64,000 nt of DNA from Thermococcus henrietii (GTDB taxonomy: Archaea; Methanobacteriota_B; Thermococci; Thermococcales; Thermococcaceae): positions 930,001 to 994,000 of the forward strand of contig NZ_LT900021.1 in the NCBI RefSeq assembly GCF_900198835.1, given 5' to 3'. The notes beneath the pieces were generated by a model, which was not told the DNA's origin, searched no databases, and saw only the letters and a list, made by a program, of their open reading frames with translations. The position numbers and the translations under genes were made by a program. Positions 31,198 to 38,683 of the stretch are shown piece by piece (the first letter of the stretch is position 1; each line of letters begins with the position of its first letter).

Positions 31198-32591
31198 AGA
31201 CCGTAATCCTTGCGGGAGGAAAGGGAACGAGGCTGTGGCCCCTGAGCAGGGAGCTGATGCCGAAGCAGTTCGTCCGCTTCCTCGACGATAGGAGCCTCTT
31301 CCAGAAGACCGTTGAAAGGGCGCTTCTCTTTTCAAAGCCGAGCGAGATATTCATTGTAACAAACAGAAACTACCGCTTCCGCGTTCTGGACGACTTAAGG
31401 GAGCTGGGTGTTGAAATCCCCGAGGATAACATACTCCTTGAACCGAGCGCCAAGAACACCCTGCCGGCCATCCTCTGGGCGACGCTCAGGATAGAGGAGG
31501 AGTTTGGGAACTCGGTCGTTGCGGTTTTACCAAGCGACCACCTCATAGAGGTCAACGAGGCCTACGAGAGGGCCTTTAAGAACGCTGAGAGGCTGGCTAA
31601 AAACCACCTCGTCACCTTCGGAATCAAGCCGACCAGACCGCACACGGGCTACGGCTACATAAAGCCGGGCGAGAAGATTGAAGAGGACGGGAGGATAATC
31701 GGCTACACCGTTGCGGAGTTCAAGGAGAAACCCGACCTCGAGACGGCAAAGCGCTACGTCGAGAGCGGCTACTACTGGAACAGCGGGATGTTCGCCTTCT
31801 CGAGCTCGCTCTTCATTGAGGAGGTTCAGAAGCACGCCCCCGACGTCTGGGAGGCCTTCGAGGAGAGCGGTGACATAGAGGAGGCCTACAACCGCGTCCC
31901 GGAGATAAGCATAGACTACGGCGTCATGGAGAAGACCGACAAGGCGGCCGTCGTTCCTCTCAACACGGTGTGGAGCGACCTTGGAAGCTTCGACGCCATC
32001 TACGAAGTCCTCGAGAAGGACTCCGACGGAAACGCGGTCAGGGTTCGCGGAAAGAACGGCTACCACATAGGGGTCAACTCGAAGAACAACCTCATAATGA
32101 CCGAGCGCCTGACAGCGACTGTCGGCGTTGATGATTTGATAATCATAGACACCGGCGACGCCCTGCTCGTGGCGAAGAAGGGCGAGAGCCAGCGCGTTAA
32201 GGAGGTCTACAAGGCACTTAAGGAGCTCGGCGACGAGCGCGTCATCGTCCACAGAACCGCGTACAGGCCCTGGGGAAGCTACACCGTGCTTGAAGAGGGC
32301 GACCGCTACAAGATAAAGCGCCTGACCGTTCTGCCGGGCAAGAAGCTCTCCCTCCAGATGCACTACCACCGCTCCGAGCACTGGGTCGTGGTCAGGGGAA
32401 CCGCCAAGGTCATCGTTGGGGACAGGGAGATACTTCTTCGCCCTGGAGAGAGCACGTTCATTCCAGCCGGCGTTAAGCACCGCCTTGAGAACCCCGGAAA
32501 GGTCGTTCTGGAGGTCATAGAGACCCAGATTGGTGAGTACCTTGGCGAGGACGACATAGTTCGCTTTGACGACGAGTTCGGGAGGGTCTGA
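31194..32591 (+). CDS. manC: Bifunctional mannose-1-phosphate guanylyltransferase / mannose-6-phosphate isomerase
   Basis: A 465-residue two-domain enzyme. The N-terminal nucleotidyltransferase has LAGGKGTRLWPLSRELMPKQ and VVAVLPSDHLI, making GDP-mannose. The C-terminal cupin has KLSLQMHYHRSEHWVVVRG and STFIPAGVKHRLEN, the type II mannose-6-phosphate isomerase. GDP-mannose is the donor for mpgS two genes upstream. The start is GTG 31194 inside the mpgP end. It ends two bases before the phosphomannomutase. Confidence 0.95.
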   Translation: MKTVILAGGKGTRLWPLSRELMPKQFVRFLDDRSLFQKTVERALLFSKPSEIFIVTNRNYRFRVLDDLRELGVEIPEDNILLEPSAKNTLPAILWATLRIEEEFGNSVVAVLPSDHLIEVNEAYERAFKNAERLAKNHLVTFGIKPTRPHTGYGYIKPGEKIEEDGRIIGYTVAEFKEKPDLETAKRYVESGYYWNSGMFAFSSSLFIEEVQKHAPDVWEAFEESGDIEEAYNRVPEISIDYGVMEKTDKAAVVPLNTVWSDLGSFDAIYEVLEKDSDGNAVRVRGKNGYHIGVNSKNNLIMTERLTATVGVDDLIIIDTGDALLVAKKGESQRVKEVYKALKELGDERVIVHRTAYRPWGSYTVLEEGDRYKIKRLTVLPGKKLSLQMHYHRSEHWVVVRGTAKVIVGDREILLRPGESTFIPAGVKHRLENPGKVVLEVIETQIGEYLGEDDIVRFDDEFGRV

Positions 32592-32592
32592 G

Positions 32593-33969
32593 ATGGGAAA
32601 GCTGTTCGGAACCTTCGGCGTCCGCGGGATAGCCAACGAGAAGATAACGCCCGAGTTCGCGCTCAAGATGGGCATGGCCTTCGGGACGATGCTCAAGCGC
32701 GAGGGAAGGGAGAAACCGCTGGTCGTCGTCGGCAGGGACACGAGGGTGAGCGGGGAGATGCTGAAGAACGCGCTCATCAGCGGACTCCTCAGTGTCGGCT
32801 GTGACGTCATCGACGTGGGAATAGCACCCACCCCAGCGATACAGTGGGCCACCAACCACTTCAAGGCCGACGGCGGGGCGGTTATTACGGCCAGTCACAA
32901 CCCGCCCGAGTACAACGGCATAAAGCTCCTCGAACCGAACGGAATGGGCCTCAAGAAGGAGCGCGAAGCGGTCGTTGAGGAGGTCTTCTTTAAAGAGGAC
33001 TTCGACAGGGCGAAGTGGGACGAAATCGGTGAGGTTCGCGAGGAAAACATAATCAAGCCCTACATCGAGGCGATAAAGGCCAGGGTGGACGTTAAGGCAA
33101 TCAGGAAGAGAAGGCCCTTCGTCGTCGTTGACACCTCCAACGGCGCCGGAAGCCTGACCCTTCCGTATCTCCTGCGTGAGCTCGGCTGTAAGGTTGTGAG
33201 CGTCAACGCCCACCCCGACGGTCACTTCCCGGCCAGAAACCCGGAGCCTAACGAGGAGAACCTTAAGGACTTCATGAAGATTGTTAAGGCCCTCGGTGCT
33301 GACTTCGGAGTTGCCCAGGACGGCGACGCTGACAGGGCCGTCTTCATAGACGAGAACGGGCGCTTCATCCAGGGCGACAAGACCTTCGCCCTCGTCGCCG
33401 ATGCGGTTCTTAAAGAGAGGGGCGGTGGACTGCTCGTTACTACCATTGCGACCTCAAACCTGCTCGATGACATCGCGAAGAAGAACAACGCGAAGATTAT
33501 GCGCACGAAGGTTGGGGATTTAATCGTCGCGAGGGCTTTGCTTGAGCACAACGGGACCATCGGCGGCGAGGAGAACGGTGGCGTCATCTTCCCGGACTTC
33601 GTCCTTGGAAGGGACGGGGCAATGACCACCGCGAAGATAATCGAGATTTTTGCCAAGTCCGGCAAGAAGTTCAGCGAGCTGATTGATGAACTGCCGAAGT
33701 ACTACCAGTTCAAGACGAAAAGGAAAGTTGAAGGCGACAGGAAGGCGATAGTCGCCAAGGTTGTGGAGCTCGCCAAGGCTAAGGGCTACGAGATAGACAC
33801 GACCGATGGAACGAAGATACTCTTCCCCGACGGCTGGGTTCTGGTTAGGGCAAGCGGGACCGAGCCGATAATAAGGGTCTTCAGCGAGGCCAAGAGCGAG
33901 GAGAAGGCCAGGGAGTACCTTGAGCTCGGGTTGAAGTTGCTGGAGGAAGCCCTGGCCTCCGGTGGTTGA
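32593..33969 (+). CDS. manB: Phosphomannomutase / phosphoglucomutase
   Basis: A 458-residue alpha-D-phosphohexomutase. GTFGVRGIANEKITPEF opens domain 1, the phosphoserine loop is VITASHNPPEYNG near residue 97, the Mg loop is DGDADRAVFID near residue 240, the sugar loop is GGEENGGVIF, and the phosphate loop is VRASGTEPIIRVF. All four active-site loops are intact. It makes mannose-1-phosphate for manC, closing the mannosylglycerate pathway. ATG 32593 is set by the conserved N-terminus. Compare the degenerate relative at 48678-49391. Confidence 0.95.
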   Translation: MGKLFGTFGVRGIANEKITPEFALKMGMAFGTMLKREGREKPLVVVGRDTRVSGEMLKNALISGLLSVGCDVIDVGIAPTPAIQWATNHFKADGGAVITASHNPPEYNGIKLLEPNGMGLKKEREAVVEEVFFKEDFDRAKWDEIGEVREENIIKPYIEAIKARVDVKAIRKRRPFVVVDTSNGAGSLTLPYLLRELGCKVVSVNAHPDGHFPARNPEPNEENLKDFMKIVKALGADFGVAQDGDADRAVFIDENGRFIQGDKTFALVADAVLKERGGGLLVTTIATSNLLDDIAKKNNAKIMRTKVGDLIVARALLEHNGTIGGEENGGVIFPDFVLGRDGAMTTAKIIEIFAKSGKKFSELIDELPKYYQFKTKRKVEGDRKAIVAKVVELAKAKGYEIDTTDGTKILFPDGWVLVRASGTEPIIRVFSEAKSEEKAREYLELGLKLLEEALASGG

Positions 33970-34246
33970 GCCTTTTCCTCACACTCTTTTCACCGTCCTT
34001 GGCCTCCTATCAATGTTCTCTTACGGCACCAAATGGTTCAAATTCTAGTGTCACTGGCACCAGTAATATTACCTAAAAGAAGATACTATTTGAGCTTTTA
34101 ACTTCTAAGCTGCGCGTGGGTGTGAAGTTGTGTTACATACTAATTCGGCTGAATCGTATCTGTTAGAAGTTTGCACCAACATGCTTAAATTAAGTTGTTT
34201 ATTATATAAAAACGCCAGATGTTACGTGTCGGTGGAGGGTTGGCAA

Positions 34247-34681
34247 ATGAGGAAGATTCGGGCTTTAGTAATTTTTTGGATTGGACTTATGGTTTTTAGT
34301 AGTGTTGCTTTTGTGATGGCAACCCCATACTACCACCACATAGCCAGATATGTTGTTGGTGGTAGTGATAGGGAAGAAGCGAAGGATGGTATGTACGCTT
34401 TTGTGTCCGGAACCTTCTACCTGCCCCCCAAATACGGCAACGGAGGTTTTTTAACGAACATCCATTGGGATGCGGGACCAAAGGACGTGGTTGGGATAGG
34501 ATTCTATCCACTGTATCCACATTGGGGGGAGAATCCAAACGCTAAGATATATGGCCCCAATGCGTATGCTGAGGTGAAAGTAGTCGATGATTTTGTGGTT
34601 GTATACGCCGAGATTGACGAACATGATGCTTATAGGGCTGCATGGGAGGATAAGCCCCACCACGGGGTGGGCAACCAATGA
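34247..34681 (+). CDS. Small secreted protein of unknown function, first gene of ABC cassette
   Basis: A 144-residue protein. The N-terminus KIRALVIFWIGLMVFSSVAF followed by VMA is a clear signal peptide. The mature part is rich in aromatic residues, Gly and His (TPYYHHIARYV, GFYPLYPHWGENPNA, DKPHHGVGNQ) and looks beta-rich. I recognise no family. ATG 34247 follows GGAGGG; a TATA-like ttatataaa lies about 40 bases upstream. Base composition is A/T-rich compared with neighbours, suggesting transfer. The 277 bases between manB and this gene hold only that promoter. It overlaps the next gene by ATGA. Confidence 0.7.
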   Translation: MRKIRALVIFWIGLMVFSSVAFVMATPYYHHIARYVVGGSDREEAKDGMYAFVSGTFYLPPKYGNGGFLTNIHWDAGPKDVVGIGFYPLYPHWGENPNAKIYGPNAYAEVKVVDDFVVVYAEIDEHDAYRAAWEDKPHHGVGNQ

Positions 34682-35670
34682 AAACCAGCGCATCTGCGCT
34701 CCTCCTCCTAGTTTTTCTCGTAACCTCACCTGTCTTGGCAGCGGGGACGACCGGCCCTGGTGTGCCGTACTGGGTTAGACCCGGTGCAACCCTCGAGTAC
34801 CGTGCCTTCAGCACCCATCCAGCCGGCGGCGGCTTCATCTTCAACGTCAGCGGGGTCCCTGTGGCCGTCACGGGCCCCAACGTCACGGTGGTTTTCCGTG
34901 TGCTCGAAGTCAAAAACGGACTCGCTCTAATGCACGTTTCCATCATCGTGACGACTGGAAACGTGTCCTTTGCACCCGTTCTCGTTATCTACCCCAACAA
35001 CTCCACGGTGCGCCCCTTCTGGAATGAGAGCAGTATAGTGGCCGTGAAGGCTTTGGACAACTATACGAAGGTTGTACTGAGCTCCCTGAGGGTGGATGGG
35101 CAGTACCGGATAAACCTGACGACCGGGTGGGTCTACGACCTCAAGGGAAGGCCCTACGGACACACGGTTCTGTGGGATGATTTCAGGCCGAACGAAACCT
35201 TCGCCCTCTACCACGGGAAACGTGTTAAGGTAGTTGCCGTTAAGATTGTAAACGTGAGCATGAGGACGTACTACGGGACCTTTCCCAAGCCCAACGTGGT
35301 GGTACACAGCGGGCGCGTCGTCACCCCCATAACTGTTTCCTCCTTCGACGCCATTTACAGCCCCGAGTACGATATCTGCATATCCTTCATGACGGACCCG
35401 ATACCGGACTTCAACGCCGTTGGGGTCTACGGCTTCATGTGGACCGATGACAGGGCAACCAGAATTGACACTGAGCTCTCGGAGAGGCATAGAGGGATGG
35501 TGAGCGGCATGTGGGCGTGGGGGGTTATACTCTCCAACGCAACCCTCAGCCAGGGACACGGCGCGGCCGTGACGCCCCCTCGGAACTCCAGGCTTCGTTA
35601 TCTGGTGGTATTTCTGCTCATTGTAATCTGTGTGACCTCAGCGGTGTGCTTTGAGAGACGGAGGCGGTGA
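34678..35670 (+). CDS. Secreted, C-terminally membrane-anchored protein of ABC cassette
   Basis: A 330-residue protein. It has a signal peptide (ALLLLVFLVTSPVLA) and one C-terminal membrane helix (YLVVFLLIVICVTSAVCF) followed by ERRRR, so most of it faces outside the cell. Several N-x-S/T sites (NVTVVF, NNSTV, NESS, NLTT) fit an archaeal glycosylated surface protein. No enzyme motif is seen. It overlaps both neighbours by four bases, and so is part of the same cassette as the permease and ATPase. Confidence 0.72.
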   Translation: MKTSASALLLLVFLVTSPVLAAGTTGPGVPYWVRPGATLEYRAFSTHPAGGGFIFNVSGVPVAVTGPNVTVVFRVLEVKNGLALMHVSIIVTTGNVSFAPVLVIYPNNSTVRPFWNESSIVAVKALDNYTKVVLSSLRVDGQYRINLTTGWVYDLKGRPYGHTVLWDDFRPNETFALYHGKRVKVVAVKIVNVSMRTYYGTFPKPNVVVHSGRVVTPITVSSFDAIYSPEYDICISFMTDPIPDFNAVGVYGFMWTDDRATRIDTELSERHRGMVSGMWAWGVILSNATLSQGHGAAVTPPRNSRLRYLVVFLLIVICVTSAVCFERRRR

Positions 35671-36443
35671 GGATGGGGCGTTTGGCGAACCTCTTCTTCT
35701 GGGAGATTAACGACCCCCTCAGGGTCCTGGTTACGGCAGTGGGGACCTTCGTTATCGGCCTCATATTCCAGCACAGCCTCCTCGTGAGCCTCGGGCAGGT
35801 TGGGACGGTCTCCCAGATGGCCGAGGGGCTGCACTCCATGACCGGTCTGGTGCTCGTTCGAGCGGCGACGTCGTCCAACCTGTGGGTTGTGGCTACGTTC
35901 TTCGTGGTCGTTTTGACGGCCCTTGCGTTCCGGGCAGGAATTGAGAGGGGCTACGAGGCGGTGGTTTTCTCCCTCCCCTACTCCCGCGCAGGGGTGTTCT
36001 GCGTTAAGCTCGTGGCAACCCTCCTGATGTCCGTCGTGATACTTCTCGTGCCGGTTGTTCTCTTAACCGCGGTTAACCTCGCGGACGTTCCCCGCTTTGA
36101 CCTCTCCGTACTCCTCGGGGACAGGTTTCTTGGTCTAACAATAGTCCTTCTGGCAGGTCTCTTTTACGTTGTTTCGATTGCAACGCTACTCGCCACCGCC
36201 CTCAGGAGCATGCTAATGGCCCTCGTCCTGGCCTTTCCGGTCCTGATACTACCGTACCTCCTGGGCGTGAACCTCCCACCGAGGAACTTTCTCTTTGACG
36301 TCTGGGGTACGCTGACGATACTGACGGCTGACTTTTCCCTATCCCGGTTCATCACTGAAAAAATCCTCCTCTACGGTTTTATAGTTCCCGGGGCGGCCGT
36401 CGCGGCGTCCCTTCTGATGATTCTCGGGAGGGACGTTAGATGA
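35667..36443 (+). CDS. ABC-2-like permease of the cassette
   Basis: A 258-residue protein with six predicted membrane helices. The FRAGIERGYEAVVFSLPYSR segment before helix 2 is typical of ABC-2 exporter permeases (the loop that contacts the ATPase). Spacing and overlaps (ATGA at both ends) tie it to the ATPase gene at 36880. Only one permease is present, so a homodimer is expected. The exported substrate is unknown. Confidence 0.75.
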   Translation: MRMGRLANLFFWEINDPLRVLVTAVGTFVIGLIFQHSLLVSLGQVGTVSQMAEGLHSMTGLVLVRAATSSNLWVVATFFVVVLTALAFRAGIERGYEAVVFSLPYSRAGVFCVKLVATLLMSVVILLVPVVLLTAVNLADVPRFDLSVLLGDRFLGLTIVLLAGLFYVVSIATLLATALRSMLMALVLAFPVLILPYLLGVNLPPRNFLFDVWGTLTILTADFSLSRFITEKILLYGFIVPGAAVAASLLMILGRDVR

Positions 36444-36883
36444 GGCACCGCCTCGTGCTCTCCATCCTAATCATCCTCGGGTTCGTTTTCCTCCTTCCTG
36501 TGCTGGAGTTTGGAGCAATCCATGGGGCCGTCTGGCCGGGAGGCGTTTACACTGTCTCACAGACGGAGGGCTCCCAGTTCAGCTCCCCTGGATGGGCGGT
36601 GCTCAACCTAACGTGCAACGGCAGGACCGGTAGGGTGCTCGTGATGGACGACACGATGGGCAGGCCCATCCTGAACGCCACGGTCTTCGGTCACGGAAAC
36701 TTTGAGGTCGTTATCCCCCATGCGGGTGATTACAGCGTTTTCTCCATGTCTAACGGAACCCTCGTGTGCACTGACCGACTGTGGTGCCCCCACCCAACGG
36801 AGCGCGTTCAGAACGTCTCCTATCTGGCATCTTCCACATGCTTTGCGCTCTCTGCGTTCCTTCTCTGGAGGTGGTGGCATTGA
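36440..36883 (+). CDS. Small membrane-anchored extracellular protein of ABC cassette
   Basis: A 147-residue protein with an N-terminal hydrophobic segment (LVLSILIILGFVFLLPVLEF), a predicted extracellular beta-rich middle with NLTCNG, NATVFG, SNGTLVC and NVSY glycosylation-type sites, and a short C-terminal hydrophobic stretch (STCFALSAFLLWRWWH). The family is unknown. Cysteines (NLTCNG, LVCTDRLWC) might form a disulfide outside the cell. Overlaps of four bases connect it with the permease and ATPase. Confidence 0.65.
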   Translation: MRHRLVLSILIILGFVFLLPVLEFGAIHGAVWPGGVYTVSQTEGSQFSSPGWAVLNLTCNGRTGRVLVMDDTMGRPILNATVFGHGNFEVVIPHAGDYSVFSMSNGTLVCTDRLWCPHPTERVQNVSYLASSTCFALSAFLLWRWWH

Positions 36884-37557
36884 TTGAGGCGGAGAACCTG
36901 ACCAAGCGTTTTGGGCGCATAGTGGCGCTCGATGGTGTTACAGTTGAGATTCCCGAGGGTTTCAACCTAATCCTCGGTCCGAACGGCGGCGGAAAGAGCA
37001 CGTTCTTCAAGCTCGCAACCGGCATCTACAGGCCGAGTTCCGGGAGAATACGGCTGTTCGGAGAGAACCCCTGGAAGGATGCTGGGATTAAACGGAAGAT
37101 TGGGGTCTCCTACGACCCCGTTTCGTTTCCTCCTCTAATCTCTGGCAGGGAGTGGCTTGAGTTCATAGCGCGTTCCAAAGGCTTCGATGAGAGTGAGGTC
37201 GAGCGCGTTGGGAAGCTCTTTCAACTCGACTTTCTCGACGAGAGAACGTCCAACTATTCCTCGGGAATGCTCAAGAAGCTCGCGGTGGCTCAGGCATTCG
37301 TAGGCGCTCCCGACTTGATAATGATAGACGAGCCCCTGGCTAACGTCGACTTTGAAACCATGGGGCGGTTCATAAAGCTTTTCAGGAAGATGAAGGGCAA
37401 AACGAGCTTTCTTATTATAAGTCATATATGGAGCCCTCTGAAGCCCCTCGTGGACCGACTGTACGTTATCTCGAACGGAAGGCTCATCCTCCACGGGGAG
37501 GCAAGGGACCTCTGGGATGACGTTGAGAACCTGTTTCGCTTTCCAAGTCTCGACTAG
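36880..37557 (+). CDS. ABC transporter ATPase of the cassette
   Basis: A 225-residue ATPase: Walker A GPNGGGKST near residue 34, signature-like YSSGMLKKL near residue 127, Walker B LIMIDEPLANVD, and switch His in IISHIWSP. The signature has YSSGM where exporters usually have LSGGQ, a form common in ABC-2 exporters. I set the start at TTG 36880 (MIEAENLTKRF) because GGAGGTGG lies seven bases upstream and the TTGA overlaps the upstream stop. An upstream ATG at 36781 would add residues that read antisense-like. Confidence 0.85.
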   Translation: MIEAENLTKRFGRIVALDGVTVEIPEGFNLILGPNGGGKSTFFKLATGIYRPSSGRIRLFGENPWKDAGIKRKIGVSYDPVSFPPLISGREWLEFIARSKGFDESEVERVGKLFQLDFLDERTSNYSSGMLKKLAVAQAFVGAPDLIMIDEPLANVDFETMGRFIKLFRKMKGKTSFLIISHIWSPLKPLVDRLYVISNGRLILHGEARDLWDDVENLFRFPSLD

Positions 37558-37604: not shown

Positions 37605-38087
37605 ATGAACGGAACGACGCTCTTCATAAACGCCCTCGCCCTTGCTTGCCTCGCCCTCGGCTTCATGAAGGACCGGGCAAAGACGAGGCAGGCTCTGAAG
37701 GTCTCCGTGAAGTTTTTCGTGCGGATTCTTCCGACGATGCTCGCGATAATCCTGATAATCGGCCTTATGTCCGGCTTCGTGCCACCCAAAACAATCTCCC
37801 GCGTCGTCGGCCGGGAGGCGGGGTTCATCGGCGTCCTAACGGTAGCGGTTCTCGGGGCGATACTCCAGATACCCTCCCTGATAGCGTTTCCCCTCGCCGC
37901 GTCCCTGCTCAACATGGGGGCCTCGCTAACCTCGGTGGCAGTTTTCATAACGACGCTGACGATGATTGGCTTCGTTACCCTTCCGTTGGAGATTAAAATT
38001 CTCGGGAAGCGCTTCGCCCTGCTGAGAAACGTCCTCAGCTTCGTAATCGCGATTCTGATAGGTCTTTTAATGGGGGTGTTACTTTGA
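37605..38087 (+). CDS. Permease half-protein A (ArsP_1/PF03773-like)
   Basis: A 160-residue membrane protein with four or five helices. FVRILPTMLAIILIIGLMSG, GREAGFIGVLTVAVLGAILQ and IPSLIAFPLAASLLNMGAS resemble one half of the predicted permease family that includes ArsP. It overlaps the next gene, which encodes the second half. The separate halves probably assemble into one transporter. The substrate is unknown. Confidence 0.75.
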   Translation: MNGTTLFINALALACLALGFMKDRAKTRQALKVSVKFFVRILPTMLAIILIIGLMSGFVPPKTISRVVGREAGFIGVLTVAVLGAILQIPSLIAFPLAASLLNMGASLTSVAVFITTLTMIGFVTLPLEIKILGKRFALLRNVLSFVIAILIGLLMGVLL

Positions 38088-38683
38088 GGGCCGACGGCAA
38101 AGTTCCAAAGGGTCCGGGGAAGGGCCGTGGAGCCATGAAAAATCAGAAGAAGGCCCTCCTGCGCGATTTGGCGTTCCTCGGTGTCGTTGTGGTGATAACC
38201 GCGGTGCTCCTCCTAATGTTCCCGGAGAAGAGAGCTCCTGTTTTCTCGGCGTCGAAGGACTACCTCGTGGAGATGCTCCTCGTAATGCCAGCAGTAATGG
38301 TCCTGATGGGCCTGTTCTCGGTCTTCGTCCCCGATGAGCTAATCGTGAAGTACCTCGGGAAGAGCTCCGGGCTCAAGGGCATGCTTATAGCGATACTGCT
38401 CGGCGCTTTCCCGACCGGACCGCTCTACGTGGCCTTCCCGATAGCGGCGTCGTTGCTCAAGAAAGGCGCCCGCGTCGCGAGCGTCGTTGTTTTCCTCTCG
38501 GCCTGGGCCTGCATAAAGATTCCGCAGGAGCTGGTTGAGTTGCAGTTCCTTGGGCTGAGGTTCATGGTAACGAGGCTGACCCTCACGATAGTCTTCGTGC
38601 TGGCAATGGGCCTGCTCATGGAGAATATTTTGGGGAGGGAGCTGAGGGACGTCCCCGGAGCTCCTGAACCGGGAAGGCGGTGA
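38084..38683 (+). CDS. Permease half-protein B (ArsP_1/PF03773-like)
   Basis: A 199-residue membrane protein. YLVEMLLVMPAVMVLMGLFS, GLKGMLIAILLGAFPTGPLY and VAFPIAASLLKKGARVASVV repeat the pattern of the preceding gene (PSLIAFPLAASLL in A, LYVAFPIAASLL in B), as expected for the two homologous halves of a permease. The N-terminal 20 residues are basic. The start at TTG 38084 overlaps the upstream stop; ATG 38135 would remove only the basic leader. Confidence 0.75.
   Translation: MRADGKVPKGPGKGRGAMKNQKKALLRDLAFLGVVVVITAVLLLMFPEKRAPVFSASKDYLVEMLLVMPAVMVLMGLFSVFVPDELIVKYLGKSSGLKGMLIAILLGAFPTGPLYVAFPIAASLLKKGARVASVVVFLSAWACIKIPQELVELQFLGLRFMVTRLTLTIVFVLAMGLLMENILGRELRDVPGAPEPGRR

Follow-up and report, generated by a model that had tools for sequence, protein, structure and literature searches.

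A variable five-gene ABC-2 transporter cassette in Thermococcales as a candidate bacteriocin-like system

Five co-directional genes (A, B, C, D and E) on the forward strand of the window, the whole 64,000-nucleotide stretch of DNA analyzed here, lie between phosphomannomutase-type and ArsP-type permease genes and form a cassette that is reasonably likely to represent, in this archaeal family, a bacteriocin-like system of the toxin/immunity type. Loci for bacteriocins or polymorphic toxins with immunity carry a variable secreted protein and a linked, co-varying partner that is kept even without it. We favor this reading because A is secreted and variable, B is linked to it and co-varies with it, and B is retained and stockpiled without A. 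Comparison of the sequences shows a shared gene order, A–B co-variation, module exchange, arrays of B without A and preferential loss of A.

Organization of the cassette and its five products

The initial annotation described five genes joined by 4-bp overlaps at every step. All five are real and run in the same direction (Table 1). The overlaps of A/B and C/D (ATGA in both cases) are firm, that of D/E (TTGA) is probable and that of B/C is doubtful. The D/E overlap requires the TTG start at 36880, in favor of which an SD-like GGAGGTG is found at 36867–36873. The B/C overlap (GTGA) would use the GTG at 35667, approximately 1 nt from an SD-like GGAGG, compared with approximately 7 nt for the ATG at 35673; given this spacing and the family consensus N-terminus of C, "MG", translation of C probably starts at the ATG, leaving a 2-nt gap after B. 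Upstream of A lie a TATA-like box and then an SD-like sequence, so a single promoter for all five genes is plausible. The cassette is followed directly, at 37605–38683, by two overlapping ArsP_1-type permeases of half length (160 and 199 aa), each corresponding to one half of a profile for Cu/Zn efflux permeases.

Table 1. Features of the cassette and its upstream flank, in window coordinates
Feature	Coordinates	Strand	Remark
Phosphomannomutase-type gene	32566..33969	+	Flank marking the slot, outside the cassette
TATA-box-like TTTATTATATAAAAA, possible cassette promoter	34198..34212	+	Consensus resemblance only, read from the sequence
SD-like GGTGGAGGG ahead of A	34231..34239	+	Read from the sequence
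A, small secreted protein, 144 aa	34247..34681	+	Probable divergent member of the A set
B, 330-aa surface protein, putative cognate partner of A	34678..35670	+	Signal segment and C-terminal TM
C, ABC-2 permease, six TM peaks	35673..36443 (start preferred; 35667 possible)	+	
D, small membrane-anchored protein, 147 aa	36440..36883	+	Family alignment
E, ABC ATPase, 225 aa, TTG start	36880..37557	+	PF00005

The transporter genes had been likened to ABC-2 exporters, and this resemblance holds. Although the window's B, C and D have no direct match in Pfam or NCBIfam, 17 of 23 homologs of C match PF12730 (best 6e-9), and C, with its six TM peaks, is through them assigned as an ABC-2 permease. E is an ABC ATPase (PF00005, 5e-17), giving the combination of a six-TM permease, by family, and a partner ATPase that characterizes ABC-2 transporters. 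The nearest solved structures of E are ABCA-type and NosF ATPases, and in NCBIfam it resembles LanF-type lantibiotic-protection ATPases and DrrA, among many others; its second-best match there, the LanF-type TIGR03740, scored 105 bits and did not reach the cut-off of 309.75. Scans of genome contigs returned no relative of C and only generic ATPases for E.

B and D, annotated as extracellular and anchored, have the features that this requires: an N-terminal hydrophobic segment and a C-terminal TM segment in B, and an N-terminal TM with a weaker C-terminal hydrophobic stretch in D. The AlphaFold2 (AF2) model of B is confident and beta-rich (pLDDT 90), and fold searches with it retrieved no PDB or BFVD (viral) structure at E ≤ 0.001, so B possibly adopts an undescribed fold. 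No match to B was found in the plasmids searched, and no Pfam family matched the D family. For B and D no solved chain was related by sequence at a meaningful E-value, PDB sequence profiles gave no credible match for any of the four proteins A to D, and the protein-family libraries searched contain no name for A, B or D.

A had been described as a small secreted protein in A/T-rich DNA, in agreement with its N-terminal hydrophobic segment, a Sec-type signal sequence, and its GC content of 45%, lower than the 57% of B and the 54% of E. The statement that it belongs to no known peptide family also stands: Pfam and NCBIfam gave no match for the window's A, and a homology to lactococcin 972 suspected by eye received no profile support, the Lactococcin 972 profile of Pfam matching none of 52 A proteins. 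Matches to Ntox47 were confined to two A members, were weak (best E 0.005) and were taken as chance, and A resembles no known toxin. A proteins are mostly neutral to acidic, unlike cationic peptides, so that a folded-protein toxin would be expected. Structure prediction of the 144-residue product, which had been recommended, was run with AF2 and yielded a model too poor for interpretation (pLDDT 64).

In other cassettes, a small gene with a signal-sequence-like N-terminus usually lies just upstream of B; we refer to the subfamilies of A as K, P, W, Y, V and C. A single-sequence search with the window's A matched its own genome only, as a true orphan would, but profiles recovered a weak similarity above that of shuffled sequences. 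The mature protein outscored each of 100 shuffled sequences with the YV profile and with the C profile, and not with those of P, W or K, and it aligns with V-type A via SAYAMGQWEVPPEYT and YAFVSGTFYLPPKYG. The window's A may therefore be a divergent homolog of the A set, a weak homology that is strengthened by the identical gene position. Rather than the unrecognized, isolated novelty first noted, it appears to be a diverged representative of a set of small secreted proteins found across the family.

Occurrence of the cassette and variability of its slot

Approximately 100 cassettes were found, all within a single archaeal family, probably Thermococcaceae judging by gene content. A search of 101 genomes recovered B, C and D in 45–49 genomes, all of one genus, and A in its own genome only; a profile search of 115 genomes of the phylum recovered B and D in 61–62 genomes of one family and six genera. 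The homolog and gene-order survey suggested with the initial annotation revealed the order B-C-D-E nearly everywhere among more than 100 loci compared, with one to four tandem copies of B, and since this order recurs at about 100 loci, the five-gene arrangement is not due to chance. No homologs with an assigned ordinary function, such as S-layer or nutrient transport, which would have spoken against the annotation, were found, and nutrient transport was unsupported in any search. Four cassettes are present in the window's genome, and every one has an A of its own. An A-B-A-B-C-D-E arrangement occurs in L103, and one array (L245:5737-14640, G001) places three A genes (A-B, A-B-B, A-B) ahead of a single C-D-E. 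Some W-type cassettes encode, between B and C, an additional secreted and C-terminally anchored protein of 520–585 aa whose repeats look PEGA-like (L112:4256-6013, with equivalents in L132, L134, L139, L147, L150, L156, L168, L184 and L188). A gene of about 640 aa preceding some cassettes was considered as a further component and proved to be a helicase-like neighbor.

The same phosphomannomutase-type gene (88–97% identical) directly precedes a cassette in 10 other genomes, and by comparison among them the window's slot is hypervariable. Between L093 and the window, the flanks on both sides are 96–98% identical and E is 90% identical, against 53% for B, 46% for C and 60% for D; L092 presents nearly the same picture, and in each of the two genomes the slot has a pair of B-C-D units but lacks an A. 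L094 and L095 contain window-like B-C-D (B about 50% identical) without a window-like A. As these four genomes have related B-C-D but no window-like A, we predict that the window's A may be their missing partner. The module exchanged at this slot is probably A-B-C-D, and the window's A would, by analogy with the A–B units of other cassettes, pair with the window's B.

Co-variation of A with B and loss of A

Among 15 A–B units of the K locus, which has a flanking MptA-type gene, the distances of A tracked those of the adjacent B (Mantel r = 0.84, p = 0.0005) and were uncorrelated with C (0.02), D (0.00), E (-0.07) and the flanking gene (0.00), all with |r| < 0.08; partial tests agreed with this tracking. 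In two further sets, compared for A against B only, the correlation recurred with r = 0.88 in each (W, n = 25; P, n = 10). A linked specificity determinant that co-varies with its product, as in bacteriocin loci, is therefore seen as co-variation for the family rather than for the window's single A, and because A and B are neighbors, part of the correlation could reflect linkage without binding. In four close pairs (L127-L105, L127-L104, L105-L104 and L144-L129), dS was 0.25–0.81 for A and B, compared with 1.0–1.6 for C and E, which indicates that A–B moved between cassettes as a module; a fifth pair, L110-L125, lacked this contrast between A–B and C/E. Diversifying selection within an A subtype was not found (median dN/dS 0.07), and with A conserved within subtypes the diversity lies between them.

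This pattern bears on the very unlikely alternative that the cassette is an exporter conferring resistance to drugs or toxic compounds, with a diverged binding protein and A as an accessory secreted protein. Such a role has been proposed for similar archaeal operons with an ABC ATPase (arCOG00194) by Makarova et al. 2014 (PMC4158269), and E is similar to DrrA, among others. It leaves unexplained why B, rather than the permease or ATPase, follows A in divergence, and why A never occurs without B.

A B gene follows each of the 76 A matches that could be scored, a number that excludes a few weak or partial matches; one further A sits so near the end of its contig that B runs off it. Judged by length, 64 of these pairs are intact in both genes, 7 combine a short A with an intact B, 3 are broken in both, and 2 show the reverse, with A open and B broken (L129, in a draft genome, and L246, in a decayed cassette). 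Among 85 complete cassettes, 52 carry an intact A and 7 an A fragment, and in 26 no A was detected, although some of the latter may hide unrecognized A types, as did the window's A at first. Among 68 B copies that lack an A of their own, 59 have an A-linked counterpart of at least 45% identity in another genome, although copies sharing an array mostly resemble each other at about 30%. L124, whose A is truncated, has three B copies that are 99, 90 and 76% matches to A-linked B proteins from three further genomes. As for bacteriocins, in which an immunity gene persists without the toxin and the toxin does not persist without immunity, B outlasts A and not the converse, apart from the two cases of open A beside broken B.

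The main competing explanation, which we regard as unlikely, is a pheromone/receptor (pherotype) system in which A would be a secreted signal, B an allele-specific surface receptor, and C-D-E a complex that transduces or clears the signal. In ComX/Agr-type systems, signal and receptor alleles co-vary and move as modules, so A–B co-variation is consistent with this explanation as well, and loss of A could represent signal cheating. The cassette, however, has no kinase or regulator gene, and stockpiled A-less B copies that match the A–B pairs of other strains fit immunity better. Less likely still is a structural or kin-recognition complex, in which A, B and D would form a polymorphic surface assembly for adhesion or self-recognition, with no killing. 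The high polymorphism, the surface location of B and D and the addition in some cassettes of the large anchored protein between B and C would suit such an assembly, but the frequent absence of A with B–E kept and the accumulation of A-less B would be unexpected were it obligate.

Proposed mechanism and relation to known systems

Under the bacteriocin-like reading, A would be exported by Sec and act on related cells, presumably as a toxin. B, on the surface of the producer, would recognize its own type of A, possibly by binding, and neutralize it, and the C-D-E ABC-2 complex would spend ATP on expelling or displacing A from the membrane or envelope, acting as a pump. Specificity would reside in A–B, a module open to exchange, and E would be the conserved motor; extra B copies would be gathered as immunity to the A proteins of other strains, and A could be lost while immunity stays. 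The comparison with bacteriocin export-and-immunity systems made at the outset is indirectly supported in its immunity part by A–B co-variation, A-less B arrays and the loss of A with B–E kept, whereas the export part is disfavored: with a Sec-type signal sequence on A, protection is a more likely role for C-D-E than export.

We give about an even chance to the broader proposal of a lineage-specific intermicrobial antagonism in which toxin/immunity pairs lacking recognized relatives are swapped, as modules of alleles, onto a shared ABC-2 immunity pump and stockpiled as A-less arrays, and which would represent the first archaeocins of Thermococcales. A 2015 review named archaeocins only from haloarchaea and Sulfolobus (PMC4609331), and our literature search found none from Thermococcales. 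If true, hyperthermophilic euryarchaea possess a widespread, polymorphic antagonism system, which predicts which strains resist which A, would assign a role to protein families so far unnamed in any library, and is testable in genetically tractable Thermococcus.

Several known systems share parts of this layout. Lactococcin 972-type operons encode a small Sec-secreted protein followed by a membrane protein and an ABC ATPase; the likeness is one of working principle only, and the present cassette differs in its ABC-2 permease and the extra anchored proteins B and D. LanFEG lantibiotic immunity transporters likewise combine an ABC-2 permease with a short ATPase, as proposed here for self-protection, and no lanthipeptide precursor or modification genes are found among the cassette's genes.

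Closer in taxonomy, operons of ABC ATPase, permease and binding protein (arCOG00194) were described in archaeal dark-matter islands, with drug resistance suggested, by Makarova et al. 2014 (PMC4158269); like the cassette, they place an ATPase, a permease and a diverged binding protein in variable archaeal islands. In the same paper, clusters of secreted paralogous proteins in Thermococcus (arCOG10027/10028/10066) were suggested to be bacteriocin-like toxins or to act in quorum sensing and, unlike the cassette, carry a zincin peptidase (PMC4158269). Compared by description, an overlap of the present genes with these sets is likely; no description of the A–B pairing was found in the literature examined, including the consulted text of PMC4158269. 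VARTIG modules, for which the consulted text of PMC8416519 proposes intermicrobial conflict, are likewise hypervariable secreted/membrane loci of Thermococcales, the same order of archaea. Unlike the cassette, they are centered on a large Ig-domain protein, and mention of an ABC transporter was not found in that text (PMC8416519). Although the cassette lacks a nitrous oxide reductase context, it shares with NosDFY an ABC-2 permease, a NosF-type ATPase and an extracytoplasmic partner.
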